From positions 1 through 39,130 of the forward strand of contig WRNW01000003.1 in the NCBI GenBank assembly GCA_009776375.1: a stretch of DNA of 39,130 bases, read 5' to 3'. Below the pieces are notes generated by a model. It ran no database searches and was not told the origin of the DNA. It saw nothing but the letters and a program-made list of their open reading frames with translations. The translations under genes were made by a program, and so were the position numbers. This document shows, piece by piece, positions 5,644 to 38,626 of this stretch. How positions within the stretch are numbered: the first letter of the stretch is position 1; every line of letters starts with the position of its first letter. The DNA is from Candidatus Saccharimonadota bacterium (lineage in GTDB: Bacteria > Patescibacteriota > Saccharimonadia > Saccharimonadales > Saccharimonadaceae).

Positions 5644-6672
5644 ATGATTAAGAATCTGCGCGTTCAGAATTTTCGAAAACATGCGGATTTGGTTGTGGAT
5701 TTTAAGCCTGGTGCGACCATCATCACTGGCGCTAACGGCAGCGGTAAAACGTCGCTGCTCGAGGCGATTTATATCGCTCTCCAAGGCAAAAGTTGGCGCT
5801 CAAACTTTGCGGAAATTTTGCGCGACGATGGTCAAAACATCGCCGAGTGGTGGCGGATTGACCTAGAGTTTAGTGGCGATCAAAAACGAGTGGTCAAATT
5901 CACCAACAACGCCAAAAATTTCGTGGTCGACACTCAAACTTTTACTCGTCTGCCCGCCAAACTAAAAAAACCAGTTATTTTATTTGAACCAAACGATCTG
6001 CAACTCTTGTACGGTTCGCCAGCTCGCCGACGCGATTTTTTCGATCGATTAATTTCTCAAATCGAACCGACGCATGCGACGACTTTACGAAAATTCGAAC
6101 GGATTTTGCGCCAGCGGAACAACCTGTTACGTCAAGGCACTTCGGCTAGTGAACTGTTCGTTTGGGATCTGCAATTTGCCGATTTGTCCGAGAAAATTAT
6201 CACTGCGCGCGATCGCTGGATCAAGGAAATTAATCATCATCTCACGAACGAATACCAAAAAATCGCCGCTACTAGTCGCGACGTCGTGAATGTCAAATAT
6301 CTGGCGTCGCATAAATCACGTCAACAAATCCTTGATCAGCTAAAACACGATTTTCTAGATGGTCGATTATACACTAAAACCGGCCCGCAAACTCATGATA
6401 TTAAATTCAAAATTAACAATCACGACGCGAAATTGACGGCTTCGCGCGGCGAAAATCGCACAATTATTTTTGCCACCCTAGCGACGATGACGAGAATACT
6501 AAGCCAAACTCTGGGCGAGAAAATCTACCTATTATTTGACGACATCGACAGCGAACTCGACGCCACCCGCCGCCAAGAATTATATAAATCAGAAATTTTC
6601 GCCGACAACTACCTATTCGCGACGACGATCAAGGCCGGTGATAGCAAAAGAGGCGCCATCCATCTAAGCTAG
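5644..6672 (+). CDS. recF: DNA replication and repair protein RecF
   Basis: 'MIKNLRVQNFRKHADLVVDFKPGATIITGANGSGKTSLLEAIY', 'KKPVILFEPNDLQLLYGSPARRRDFFDRLI', 'YLLFDDIDSELDATRRQEL'. Confidence 0.95.
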   Translation: MIKNLRVQNFRKHADLVVDFKPGATIITGANGSGKTSLLEAIYIALQGKSWRSNFAEILRDDGQNIAEWWRIDLEFSGDQKRVVKFTNNAKNFVVDTQTFTRLPAKLKKPVILFEPNDLQLLYGSPARRRDFFDRLISQIEPTHATTLRKFERILRQRNNLLRQGTSASELFVWDLQFADLSEKIITARDRWIKEINHHLTNEYQKIAATSRDVVNVKYLASHKSRQQILDQLKHDFLDGRLYTKTGPQTHDIKFKINNHDAKLTASRGENRTIIFATLATMTRILSQTLGEKIYLLFDDIDSELDATRRQELYKSEIFADNYLFATTIKAGDSKRGAIHLS

Positions 6673-6706
6673 CCTCAGGCAGAAAAACCTAGCATACTCC
6701 ACTCTG

Positions 6707-7876
6707 CTATTTCACGAATTCTATAAAATTGTCTTTGTTAATAACCCGGACGCCTTCTGTCCCATACTCTTTCTGAAAAGTATGTCCTGATGCCCCAGCT
6801 TTACTTTTACTCCATTTAATTTCAAACGGATATATATGGCCATCAAACTCTTCGATCAAATCAATCTCACCAGCATTTTTGAGACGCCAAAAATACAAAG
6901 TTTTATACAAGTTGTGACTCTGATTGTACTTTAACCGTTCGCCAATCATTAGGTTTTCCCACAATCCACCAACATCTCGACCAGTTGTAGCATCACTAAA
7001 ATTATCTGTTAATGCTGCAATAATTCCATTATCGTAAAAATAAAATTTCTTGCCTTTTTTTATTTCGTTACGCATATTTCTAGCAAATGACGGTAGCCGG
7101 TAAATTATAAAAGCCTGCTCTAGCAAACGAATATAGCTGGCTACAGTATTTTTATCAATATTCACTAAGCCAGCGATTTCAGTCATCGACACCTCATTGC
7201 CCACCTGGTAGGCTAACGCACGCAAAATATTCGTCAAGACCTCTGGGTTTTTGATGTCATTAAATTTGAATACGTCTTTGTACAAATAGCTCGTCGACAG
7301 ACTTTTCAGTTTTTCTTTGGCATCGTCGAGCGATTTCGCTAACAATATCTCTGGGTAACTACCGTAAATCAATCTAGCGCTGAGATTTTCAAAAAGCACC
7401 CGGTCACCATCGGTTTTGGCGATTTCACTGAAACTAATTGGGTAGAGAAAATACTCATAATGTCGGCCGGTTAATGGTTCATTGAGCTGGTTAGCCAGAT
7501 CGAAACTAGAAGAACCAGTGGCAACGATATTCATTTCTGGATAAGCATCAATGAATATTTTGAGCGATCTGCCGATATTCTTGACTGTTTGCGCTTCATC
7601 CAACACAATAATTTTGGAATTACCAAAAAAAGCTTTCATGACAATAGCTCTATGCGACAATAGTGCATCAACCACACCCTGGTCCTCGCAATTGAAATAC
7701 CCATCTTCGCTGTCATAGTTCCGCAGGATTTTTTTAGCCAAAGTGGTTTTACCGACCTGCCTGGGCCCATAAAGAACAATTATCTTACCGTTTTCAAACA
7801 ATCTCTTTTTGATATCTTGCTCTATGTTCCTAATATACTCTTTCATAACGCTCATCATTTTAGCACAAGCATTCAC
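6707..7876 (-). CDS. AAA_14 / DUF4143-type ATPase (start possibly internal, MSVMKEYI or MKEYI)
   Basis: 'KIIVLYGPRQVGKTTLAKKIL' Walker A, 'SKIIVLDEAQTVKNIGRSLKIFID' Walker B, 'NIVATGSSSFDL', C-terminal 'LKNAGEIDLIEEFDGHIYPFEIKWSKSKAG' (DUF4143, nuclease-fold-like). Confidence 0.9.
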   Translation of the reverse strand: MNACAKMMSVMKEYIRNIEQDIKKRLFENGKIIVLYGPRQVGKTTLAKKILRNYDSEDGYFNCEDQGVVDALLSHRAIVMKAFFGNSKIIVLDEAQTVKNIGRSLKIFIDAYPEMNIVATGSSSFDLANQLNEPLTGRHYEYFLYPISFSEIAKTDGDRVLFENLSARLIYGSYPEILLAKSLDDAKEKLKSLSTSYLYKDVFKFNDIKNPEVLTNILRALAYQVGNEVSMTEIAGLVNIDKNTVASYIRLLEQAFIIYRLPSFARNMRNEIKKGKKFYFYDNGIIAALTDNFSDATTGRDVGGLWENLMIGERLKYNQSHNLYKTLYFWRLKNAGEIDLIEEFDGHIYPFEIKWSKSKAGASGHTFQKEYGTEGVRVINKDNFIEFVK

Positions 7877-22941: not shown

Positions 22942-23502
22942 TCAAGCGGATTTTTTCCGCTTGACTGTGTGTTTGACTTTCATAATTGCGAAATTAACCT
23001 CAATACTGGTTTCGGTGTCGGTCGTTTCGAGATTATCGTCAAGGATCGATGACATGATTTCGCCACCCTCGGCGGCTAATTTTTCTTGCTCGGCCAGTTT
23101 GCTGGCGTCTGGTAGTCGATCCAAGACTCGCGCTAATTCGCGAATTTTGGCATAAGTTTCAACAATCGCCAGCGTGGCTTCGGTGGCGCGTGGGCTTTTG
23201 AGGATGGTTGCTAGCATGTAGAGGCCGCGTTCGGTGAAAGCTTTGGGCGGATATTTCGTATATTCACCCCTGCCCTTAGTTTTTAGGGTCGAAATTTTCG
23301 ACCTTAGAGCAATCAACTCCTGTTTATTCGTTTCTATGATATACCCATCTGGAAATTTATCCGGATTATTCTTGATTGCCTCGTTAACCCGTTTAGTTTC
23401 CACCCCATAAAACTGCGCGACGTCGCTATCGAGCAAAACTTGCTCACCCCGCAAGGTCAAAATTCTATCCTCAATCTGTTGCTTCATTAACATTTTATTC
23501 AT
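22942..23502 (-). CDS. ORF6N-domain DNA-binding protein (phage/accessory type)
   Basis: 'IEDRILTLRGEQVLLDSDVAQFYGVETKRVNEAIKNNPDKFPDGYIIETNKQELIALRSKIST...KYPPKAFTERGLYMLATIL', classical ORF6N. Confidence 0.93.
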   Translation of the reverse strand: MNKMLMKQQIEDRILTLRGEQVLLDSDVAQFYGVETKRVNEAIKNNPDKFPDGYIIETNKQELIALRSKISTLKTKGRGEYTKYPPKAFTERGLYMLATILKSPRATEATLAIVETYAKIRELARVLDRLPDASKLAEQEKLAAEGGEIMSSILDDNLETTDTETSIEVNFAIMKVKHTVKRKKSA

Positions 23503-23592: not shown

Positions 23593-24027
23593 ATGTTCAT
23601 GAAAAATAGACAAAAGTTTAGCCAGAAATCGCGGATAGTTTTTGGGCTGATGCTGGTGATGCTGGTGGGGATGATGGGATTCGCGACACTGAAAACCGAC
23701 GACGCACTAGCGGTGGATTGTGGTAAAACCACAACTTTTTTCGATTGGGGATGCAAAGACGTTAATGGCGATGGTGTGATAAATGAAAAGGATAACCAAA
23801 TCATCCCCGTACTGATGACGATTTTCAACTGGTTATCGATGGGTGTGGGGCTAGTGGTGATCGGTGGGATTATTTACGGTGGGATTACTTATTCAACATC
23901 GAGTGGTGATAGTGGTCGAGCTCAAGAAGCCGTCAAGCAAATCCGCAATGCAGTGATTGCTCTGATTATGTATTTTGCGATGTGGGCGCTGCTCAATTGG
24001 CTGGTACCGGGAGGGTTGTTTAACTGA
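23593..24027 (+). CDS. VirB2/TrbC-like T4SS pilin-type protein 1, with EF-hand/dockerin-like loop
   Basis: Leader 'IVFGLMLVMLVGMMGFATLKTDDALA'; 'DVNGDGVINEKD'; two TM helices around 'GGITYSTSSGDSGRAQEAVKQIRNAVIALIMYFAMWALLNWL'. Start trimmed from 23539. Confidence 0.8.
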   Translation: MFMKNRQKFSQKSRIVFGLMLVMLVGMMGFATLKTDDALAVDCGKTTTFFDWGCKDVNGDGVINEKDNQIIPVLMTIFNWLSMGVGLVVIGGIIYGGITYSTSSGDSGRAQEAVKQIRNAVIALIMYFAMWALLNWLVPGGLFN

Positions 24028-35917: not shown

Positions 35918-38626
35918 TTACACCCCTAGCTCAACCATCAAGCGCGCCTCGAGGGCGCGTTTTTCCTTTAGCTGGGATCTAGTTTCTTCGACCAGGTGGG
36001 CCGGAGCTTTGGCGGTATAGCTCGGACTGGCTAAACGTTTGTCGAGCGTCGCGATCTCTTGACGGGTTTCCGCCAATCGCACCTCGAGACGCGTCTGGTG
36101 CTCATAGATCAACTCGTCGGATAAATCGAGCCAAGCCTGGCAACCAGCGGCCGCTAGGCGCAGTCCCCGACCCCGTTTGACCGATTTGACGGACTGGAGT
36201 TTAGCGAGCGCTTGGATCAGATCGGCGTGTTCCGCAATCAACGGATCATCCTGATATAGCAAATCATACTTGTCCGACGGCAATTGAGCAGTGACCAGAC
36301 GGAGGTTGCTGATCAAATCTCTAATTTGGTCGAATTCCCCAGCTTTTTCCTGATCAAAAGGCAGTTTCTCGGGCCAGATTTGAGCAATCAGTAGCGTTTC
36401 GTCGTCATGCACAGTCGTCCAGATGGTTTCAGAAACAAACGGTGCAAAAGGATGGACTAGGCGTAACGTGACATCGAGCACGTAGTCCAAGAACTCTGGC
36501 TGCGAAGTGGTTTTGCTGGCCTCAATAAACCAATCGGCGACATCATCCCAAACTACGTGGTAAATCGTGTCGATGGCTTCGGCGAAACGATAGTTTTTGA
36601 TATGTTTGTCGAGCTGTTTTCTAGCGTCGTCCAATTGGCGCAGGATCCAGTGGTCAGCGATAGTTTGGGGTTTGGCGTTTTCTGGTAATCGCGGCGAGAA
36701 CTTCAGTTCTTCATCTCGCGAAATTCGTTCAAGCGATCCGCGCGACATGACATCCCCATGCCCTTCGGGCGGGGACCCTGTCATTTCGGCGTCTCCATTG
36801 ACCGAATTTCCGTTTGATGATTCAGAACTGGAGTTCTCGCCGCGATTGCTGCTGATTTTGCTTTCGATAAACCGCGCAATATTCCATAACTTGTTGCAAA
36901 AATTGCGTCCAGCGACTACTGAGGCGGTCGAGAAAGCTTGCGCCTGACCGGCGGAGCGATTCATGACGATGCCGATCCTGAGAGCGTCGCTGCCATATTC
37001 GTCGATAACGTCCATTGGGTTGATGACGTTGCCTTTACTTTTGCTCATCTTGACACCATGTTCGTCCAAAACTAAACCGTGGAAAAAGACATCGCGAAAC
37101 GGCACGTCGTCGGTGGCATAGAGGCCGAGCATAATCATTCGCGCCACCCATTGACGCAAAAGGTCGACACCAGTTTCCATCACCGAGGTCGGATAAAAGC
37201 GCGCCAGATCACCTTTCTCGAGGTACTCCGTCGTGATAAACGGCCACTGACCAGACGAAAACCAAGTGTCAAAAGTGTCTTCGTCGCGGCGATACTTGAC
37301 GCCATCGATGTCGATTTCCTCCTTGTCGACGCGAGTGTCAAAAATCCACTCGTCCGAGGCATTAGAAGAGTCGTCAGATGGCTTTTTTATGCGCCGAAAA
37401 GCTGGAATCGGAATCCCCCAGGGAATCTGTCGGCTGATATTCCAATCACGCAATTCGTCAAAATAACGGACTAGTTCCCTACCCTTTTGCGCCGGCACAA
37501 ATTTGATCTGGCCATTTTCGATCACCTGTTTGGCGCGCTGGGCCAACGGTTGAACCCGAACGAACCATTGTTCCATCGGCAGCGGTTCGATCACCGTACC
37601 GCATTTGTAACAGCGGCCGATGCGAGTTTTGTAATTTTTGTCAACCTTGATAATCAGGCCCATTTCCTCCATCGCCTTGACAACCGCCGCGCGGGCTTCG
37701 AGCACCGGCAGGCCCTCGAATCGGCCGGCCACCGCGGTCATTTTACCGTCCAGATCGATTGCTTGCTTGAGTGGCAAGTTGTGCCGCCCCGCGACTTCGA
37801 AATCATCAAAACTATGCGCTGGTGTAATTTTTACAACACCCGTACCAAAGTTTAGATCGACCATTTCATCGGCGACAACTTGGACTTCAAAATCGCCATT
37901 GACCCCTGGAATCACGACAGTCTGCCCGACCCATTTGGCATAGCGTTTGTCGCTCGGATGAACCGCCACGGCGGTATCGCCAAACTTGGTCTCTGGCCGC
38001 GTCGTGGCTAGCTCGAACGGACCATATTTAATGTAATATAGCGGTGTTTTTTCTTCGCGATATTCGACCTCGATGTCGGCAAAGGAAGTTTGATGTTTTG
38101 TGCAGTAATTAACCAAACGTTTACCTCTGTAAATTAATTTATCATCCCACAGTTTCTGGAAAGTTTGGTAAACTCGATCGACAACTTTTTGATCCAAAGT
38201 AAACACCAAATTCGACCAATCACAGCTGGCGCCCAGAGCCCGCAACTGTAGTTCCATATTACCGCGATTCTGTTCGACAAAATCCCAAGTCATTTTATAT
38301 AATTCCTCACGTGGAAAATCAAAACGCGACTTCTCTGCCGCCTCGAGAGATCGCTCAAAAACCACCCAAGTTTCAAAACCGGCGTGATCAGCACCCGGAA
38401 TCCAAATCGTATCACGCCCGTTCATCCGATAATAACGAGTCAAAATATCCTCGATCGGAATCATATAGGCGTGGCCAACATGCAAATTCCCGTTGGCGTT
38501 AGGCGGCGGCATGATAATCGAATAAGGTTCGCCCTTCCCTGTTGGCGCGAACGCTCCCGAAGTCTCCCACAGCGCATAAATCGCCGGTTCGTACGTTTTC
38601 GGTTCATAGGCTTTCGCTAATTTCAT
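35918..38626 (-). CDS. valS: Valyl-tRNA synthetase, with a ~50-aa low-complexity insertion
   Basis: 'PPPNANGNLHVGHAYMIPIEDILTRY', 'ARFYPTSVMETGVDLLRQWVARMIM', 'GVKMSKSKGNVINPMDVIDEYGSDALRIGI'. Confidence 0.97.
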   Translation of the reverse strand: MKLAKAYEPKTYEPAIYALWETSGAFAPTGKGEPYSIIMPPPNANGNLHVGHAYMIPIEDILTRYYRMNGRDTIWIPGADHAGFETWVVFERSLEAAEKSRFDFPREELYKMTWDFVEQNRGNMELQLRALGASCDWSNLVFTLDQKVVDRVYQTFQKLWDDKLIYRGKRLVNYCTKHQTSFADIEVEYREEKTPLYYIKYGPFELATTRPETKFGDTAVAVHPSDKRYAKWVGQTVVIPGVNGDFEVQVVADEMVDLNFGTGVVKITPAHSFDDFEVAGRHNLPLKQAIDLDGKMTAVAGRFEGLPVLEARAAVVKAMEEMGLIIKVDKNYKTRIGRCYKCGTVIEPLPMEQWFVRVQPLAQRAKQVIENGQIKFVPAQKGRELVRYFDELRDWNISRQIPWGIPIPAFRRIKKPSDDSSNASDEWIFDTRVDKEEIDIDGVKYRRDEDTFDTWFSSGQWPFITTEYLEKGDLARFYPTSVMETGVDLLRQWVARMIMLGLYATDDVPFRDVFFHGLVLDEHGVKMSKSKGNVINPMDVIDEYGSDALRIGIVMNRSAGQAQAFSTASVVAGRNFCNKLWNIARFIESKISSNRGENSSSESSNGNSVNGDAEMTGSPPEGHGDVMSRGSLERISRDEELKFSPRLPENAKPQTIADHWILRQLDDARKQLDKHIKNYRFAEAIDTIYHVVWDDVADWFIEASKTTSQPEFLDYVLDVTLRLVHPFAPFVSETIWTTVHDDETLLIAQIWPEKLPFDQEKAGEFDQIRDLISNLRLVTAQLPSDKYDLLYQDDPLIAEHADLIQALAKLQSVKSVKRGRGLRLAAAGCQAWLDLSDELIYEHQTRLEVRLAETRQEIATLDKRLASPSYTAKAPAHLVEETRSQLKEKRALEARLMVELGV
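36687..36847. repeat. 161-bp nested palindromic element inside valS
   Basis: Perfect 16-bp terminal inverted repeat AATCGCGGCGAGAACT/AGTTCTCGCCGCGATT, plus inner complementary blocks CAGTTCT/AGAACTG, TCATC/GATGA, GAAATTCG/CGAATTTC, ATGACA/TGTCAT, CCCC/GGGG, GCCC/GGGC. Confidence 0.88.

Follow-up and report, generated by a model that had tools for sequence, protein, structure and literature searches.

A palindrome within the valS gene of a Saccharibacteria genome is probably one copy of a mobile hairpin whose arms are made at the insertion locus

The window analysed here, a stretch of 39,130 nucleotides in its full length, carries on its minus strand (35918-38626) a valS gene that hosts an insertion. 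The product of 902 amino acids was recognised as a valyl-tRNA synthetase in the list of open reading frames through its Pfam domains (PF00133, tRNA-synt_1; PF08264, Anticodon_1; PF10458, Val_tRNA-synt_C) and a phmmer match to the Thermus ValRS 1gax (E 7e-152). The insertion is situated in the linker leading from the catalytic body to the anticodon-binding domain, which comprises 66 residues (588-653) in this protein and 13 (590-602) in the Thermus enzyme. The initial annotation had described this linker as unusually long and had located there a palindrome lying in frame within valS, delimited by a perfect 16-bp inverted repeat (36687-36702 / 36832-36847); the repeat, its reading frame in the 902-residue ORF and the length of the linker were all confirmed. 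When the protein was aligned with the ValRS of the other genomes of the family, the linker proved to be its sole gain, and two genomes of the same genus have other giant hairpins at this place.

The outer arms of the palindrome, arm 1 (36687-36710) and its inverted copy, arm 2 (36824-36847), pair with each other with one mismatch in 24 positions, the 16 bp at 36832-36847 being perfect. The repeat, which had been proposed to continue with few mismatches to about 29 bp, extends over 24 nt with one mismatch, after which the core is reached. This core, a repeated structured unit which we call family A, was detected as a 112-position covariance-model match (R1; 113.9 bits, E 1.9e-32) on the plus strand at 36714-36825, antisense to valS. 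Its nested pairs close, as originally described, on a TTC-containing tip, GCCC-TTC-GGGC, seen on the plus strand at 36760-36770 both in the sequence and in the predicted fold. Both strands of the palindrome are strongly folded, with -104.1 kcal/mol (z = -9.3) for the plus and -94.9 kcal/mol (z = -8.9) for the minus strand, each against 200 dinucleotide shuffles. One point of the first description had to be abandoned: the whole 161 bp had been taken as the element, but what recurs elsewhere is the inner ~110 bp alone. The perfect outer repeat belongs to the valS locus only, the 16-mer of arm 1 being found at the two arms of valS alone in the entire genome.

There is no second copy within the window, as had been noted by eye. 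In the own genome (732,928 bases in 32 contigs, 85% complete, 662 bases of contig C16 left out) a BLAST-type search revealed two more full copies, in dnaG and in pcrA/uvrD. Furthermore, a tsaD gene at a contig end carries the first ~30 nt of another copy. This tsaD is split over two overlapping contig ends (C14, ~23275-23385, and C3, 44721), and the C14-side end corresponds to the start of a family A-like copy. Since contigs end inside such copies, the copy counts in draft genomes are probably underestimates. Sequence matches to the valS element were found in 6 of 101 genomes, the own genome and its relatives; a covariance model built from 11 copies recognised family A in 11 of the 394 genomes of one Saccharibacteria family, namely the own genome and 10 others belonging altogether to 8 genera. 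After the merging of contig-end halves the element occupies 22 loci, and the genomes G000, G001, G008 and G124 have 3-4 copies each. The MAGs bearing it presumably derive from termite-gut samples. Outside the family the covariance model gave no match among 393 genomes drawn from the order, and when 84,980 species genomes were scanned for the motif and the matches verified with the model, true ones remained only in MAGs of the same Saccharibacteria family. The motif matches in a gammaproteobacterium, two Bacteroidia, Butyricicoccus and a spirochaete have no covariance-model match and were dismissed as chance. No match was observed in the viral contigs scanned, the three Rfam matches (E 0.23-0.77) were all under the gathering score, and a literature search found no report of such an element in Saccharibacteria.

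All of this evidence is comparative and was drawn mostly from draft metagenome assemblies, and in several genomes a copy is cut off by the end of a contig, so that assemblers do struggle with them. An assembly artefact of the fold-back chimera type, or a chance palindrome in a low-complexity linker, is nevertheless extremely improbable: the same core recurs in independent assemblies, within contigs of up to 262 kb, and the reading frames are intact through both arms.

Nearly all family A loci (21 of 22) are inside genes and in frame, the remaining one being intergenic. Host genes other than valS were named by recognition from their sequence and not by family search. Several genomes share the hosts valS (3 cases, at two sites), tsaD (3), ychF, obg and pcrA/uvrD (2 each), while dnaG, tgt, mnmA, a TrmA-type methyltransferase, pseudouridine synthases of the RluA and RsuA/RluB types, an iscS-like gene, exonuclease I and a FemX-like gene are single cases. 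At the 21 genic loci the core stands 12 times in gene sense and 9 times in antisense, and the host frame is free of stops in all 18 complete genic copies. The frames open per copy (mean 2.1 of 6, compared with 0.7 in base shuffles and 1.6 in coding-rich genomic segments) are no more than suggestive of an adaptation of family A to coding. Every gene examined has orthologues free of the element, as is the case for dnaG, uvrD, mnmA, tgt, trmA, rluA, ychF and obg, and for leuS with the second family described below; G104, a genus-mate of G008, gave no orthologue match. The predicted peptide has a high content of Ser, Pro, Gly and Asp, and since the element keeps the reading frame of housekeeping genes in both orientations, it appears, most simply, to be translated as an extra protein loop of this composition. 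The earlier idea of a mobile hairpin that its host protein tolerates as added sequence, following the logic of the Rickettsia palindromic elements, is supported by these copies, which are dispersed in frame and absent from orthologues. Palindromes of another type, GTCATTGCGAG, were also observed within ORFs of the own genome (C4:13579, C18:3938, C26:6527), the one at C18 in ychF, and give VIASEAKQS-like peptides.

The family A core is imperfectly palindromic and contains conserved internal loops (CAAGCGATCC / GGCTCCATTG) and an ACCC bulge. In a model-fitted alignment of 27 distinct rows, a few of them antisense matches of the same copies, 95.7% of the pair cells hold standard pairs, a figure inflated by the fitting of the alignment to the structure, compared with 82.2% in shuffles (none of 500 as high) and 31-46% in slid-control alignments. 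Double-sided changes were detected in 20 of the 27 stem pairs, and an unfitted MAFFT/RNAalifold alignment already contains them in 13 of 27. It is these double-sided changes that establish the family A hairpin as a structure under selection. Such selection, together with the fact that the hosts are mostly genes of translation, tRNA/rRNA modification and DNA replication or repair, might be read as a sign that the hairpin serves the host, for instance as an mRNA control element or as a bypass or splice element. We regard this as hardly likely, since such genes abound in reduced genomes in any case, one copy is intergenic, and the element occurs in both orientations, patchily between sister species and with open frames. 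Selection for mRNA structure is likewise unsupported by the count of 5 G-U wobbles against 18 A-C mismatches when the stems are read as mRNA; as G-U is not favoured on this strand, the host transcript is a less likely target of selection than a mobile intermediate.

The arms behave differently from the core. In the 19 complete family A copies the sequences outside the core pair within a locus and not across loci: own-arm pairing scores are 17-54, against a mean of 14 and a 95th percentile of 20 for mismatched pairs, and the host part alone, with core and T-run left out, gives p = 1e-9. In one genome the cores at dnaG and uvrD are ~98% identical, yet their arms show no relation. Within a genome, arms from different loci generally have little in common beyond the T-run, the arm-core junction being usually a T-run / A-run of the form TTTTTTCT...AGAAAAAA, and the arms of the three copies in the own genome are found nowhere else in it.

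At some loci the origin of the arms could be traced. In leuS, which carries a family B element, the filled gene would have about 9 residues at the site with one arm and 3 with none, and five relatives have 10-13, so that one of the arms is native and its partner an addition. The obg gene of G124 has an arm whose translation, EIVGDL, aligns with the conserved native EIIADL, and in tsaD of G022 a conserved Phe-Pro is covered by one arm. In these three clear cases, leuS, obg and tsaD, the alignments support an arm pair made up of the native coding sequence and an inverted copy of it that was added. The rsuA-type, rluA-type and trmA-type loci are ambiguous, with one native arm or none. The orthologues of dnaG, uvrD, ychF and mnmA are in most relatives too short to hold either arm, and since both arms look gained there, these loci provide no evidence of target origin; the G002 orthologues of ychF and mnmA have the length expected with one native arm. 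The core has opposite orientations at the same obg site in G043 and G124, and likewise in tsaD of G000 and G001; palindromic centres may therefore flip, which makes the native side of the core unreadable.

Two other origins of the arms have to be weighed. The arms could be borne by the element, with the cores homogenised by gene conversion and the arms drifting independently, kept complementary by palindrome correction. The obg arms of G043 and G124, two genomes of the same genus, seem to share an origin and to have diverged since, the two arms changing in concert, as this explanation would have it. On the other hand, arms across the loci of one genome would hardly share so little next to nearly identical cores, leuS, obg and tsaD each have an arm that codes for native residues, and conserved core mismatches were left uncorrected; we therefore consider element-borne arms unlikely. 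Even less probable is a preference of the core for the centres of pre-existing palindromes, the arms being the target itself. Other giant hairpins, with folding energies of about -84 to -115 kcal/mol, do lie in the valS linker of G002 (L073) and G001 (L074) and in mnmA of G000 (L083, which belongs to family B) and G001 (L084), so that palindromes accumulate there. However, each gene would first need its own different ~40-bp palindrome, and no such arm pair is present in the orthologues at dnaG, uvrD, tgt, trmA and leuS. It is likely, but not proven, that the arms are an inverted duplication of the target produced by fold-back synthesis.

Family B, the second family, has a core unrelated to that of family A and was recognised in a hairpin census of the own genome, ranked by energy density because raw stem-pair counts were too noisy. 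Its copies in this genome lie in mnmA (C12:14951-15106), uvrD (C12:20522-20684), topA (twice, C10:23040-23206 and 23777-23964) and a recJ-like gene (C9:24786-24958), the copy in pcrA/uvrD being positioned C-terminally. The family occurs in 56 of the 394 genomes, chiefly in one large genus that we take to be possibly the oral Nanosynbacter. Its members are in frame and have locus-specific arms and the T-run (arm test, p = 2e-6), and the ValRS linker and the TsaD loop are sites common to both families. With the other giant hairpins of the valS linker and the mnmA loop, this marks these loops as sinks for hairpin insertion. In tatD of G341 (L235) and valS of G388 (L237) the family B inverted repeat reaches conserved native codons on both sides; this looks like arm-to-arm conversion in which one flank was rewritten as the mirror of the other, and such a conversion of arms is what the element-borne explanation predicts. 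A very long hairpin was additionally seen at C9:3164-3308 of the own genome, in or right after an apparent 5S rRNA gene.

Taken together, we consider that the valS feature is probably one copy of a non-autonomous mobile hairpin, family A, in which the core is mobile and the arms are made at the locus. The core might move as single-stranded DNA folded into a hairpin, or as a hairpin RNA that is then copied into DNA, and might enter T-rich sites at replication forks, where the polymerase would snap back on the hairpin, copy 15-25 nt of the flank as an inverted duplicate and rejoin the template. Later template switching may lengthen or re-match the arms, although the persistence of the conserved core mismatches, which continual re-matching would erase, counts against this as a continual process. 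Insertions that break the frame or a structured region would then be purged by selection, leaving in-frame copies in tolerant loops. The locus-specific inverted arms represent a direct and testable signature of the mechanism. Two unrelated cores having the same design of arms and T-run and the same sites argue for a shared machinery. We propose, tentatively and with clearly less confidence than the reading of valS itself, a general insertion system of Saccharibacteria, by which any of several unrelated hairpin cores could enter T-rich sites and be fixed there through fold-back synthesis, with a target duplication of 15-25 bp, inverted and not direct, as the result. Such a system, if true, would repeatedly add disordered loops at the same sites of universal proteins, and we know of no mobile element for which an inverted target duplication has been described as the outcome of transposition.

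No transposase, reverse transcriptase or other enzyme could be tied to family A. A Y1 (RAYT-type) transposase lies beside recA, flanked by REPIN-like hairpins (own genome, C2:~6264-6777, L179; also L181, L178 and L182). It is present in 8 of the 11 element-positive and 46 of the 383 other genomes (Fisher p 9e-6, confounded by kinship), or by genus in 6 of 8 and 12 of 53 (p 0.006, which kinship may also explain). A REPIN-like hairpin was also noted in frame in a TatD-type ORF (C27:4926-4995). A reverse transcriptase (PF00078) was considered as the mobiliser and was found unconvincing, occurring in 6 of 11 positive and 3 of 10 negative genomes.

Among known systems, a MITE of a DDE transposon was rejected, given that the outer repeats are not common to the copies and no consistent direct duplication was seen by eye in the flanks. 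REPINs, which are small hairpins and non-autonomous, owe their mobility to a single-strand transposase (RAYT, a Y1 transposase), and the RAYT-like gene beside recA with its own REPIN-like hairpins recalls them; family A has, however, a long structured core with no sequence in common with the RAYT-side hairpins, which in G000 and G001 are of the TTTGCA type, and to our knowledge REPINs have no locus-specific arms. Long inverted repeats in coding sequence are present in the mitochondria of Nematomorpha, where template switching or repeat conversion was proposed to make and keep them (PMC6649704). Unlike family A, those palindromes are without a repeated mobile core, and both of their arms are native coding sequence. 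Byp elements, of which PMC6649704 cites the Magnusiomyces case, are mobile hairpins inside genes. These byp or double-hairpin elements of fungal mitochondria resemble family A in their mobility, but byps are bypassed by the ribosome, whereas family A is open in the host frame.

The closest likeness in behaviour is to the Rickettsia palindromic elements, which Ogata and colleagues (2000 and 2002, as cited in PMC6649704) reportedly described as palindromic repeats lying in frame in unrelated genes and tolerated as extra peptide. Like family A, they are palindromic repeats with several copies per genome, inserted in frame in unrelated protein genes, absent from orthologues, patchy among relatives and divided into several families. 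The differences are that family A has arms made at the locus, both orientations and two usable frames in each, and that its core motif is in no Rickettsia among the 84,980 species genomes scanned for it. We know of no report of locus-specific inverted arms in the Rickettsia elements, whose insertion mechanism is, as far as we know, unknown, and locus-made arms are a feature that we have not seen described. Family A works like the Rickettsia elements but, judged by motif occurrence, is unrelated to them by sequence or lineage. A second, unrelated set of such insertions in a distant, gene-poor lineage suggests a recurrent route to the gain of protein sequence in small genomes.
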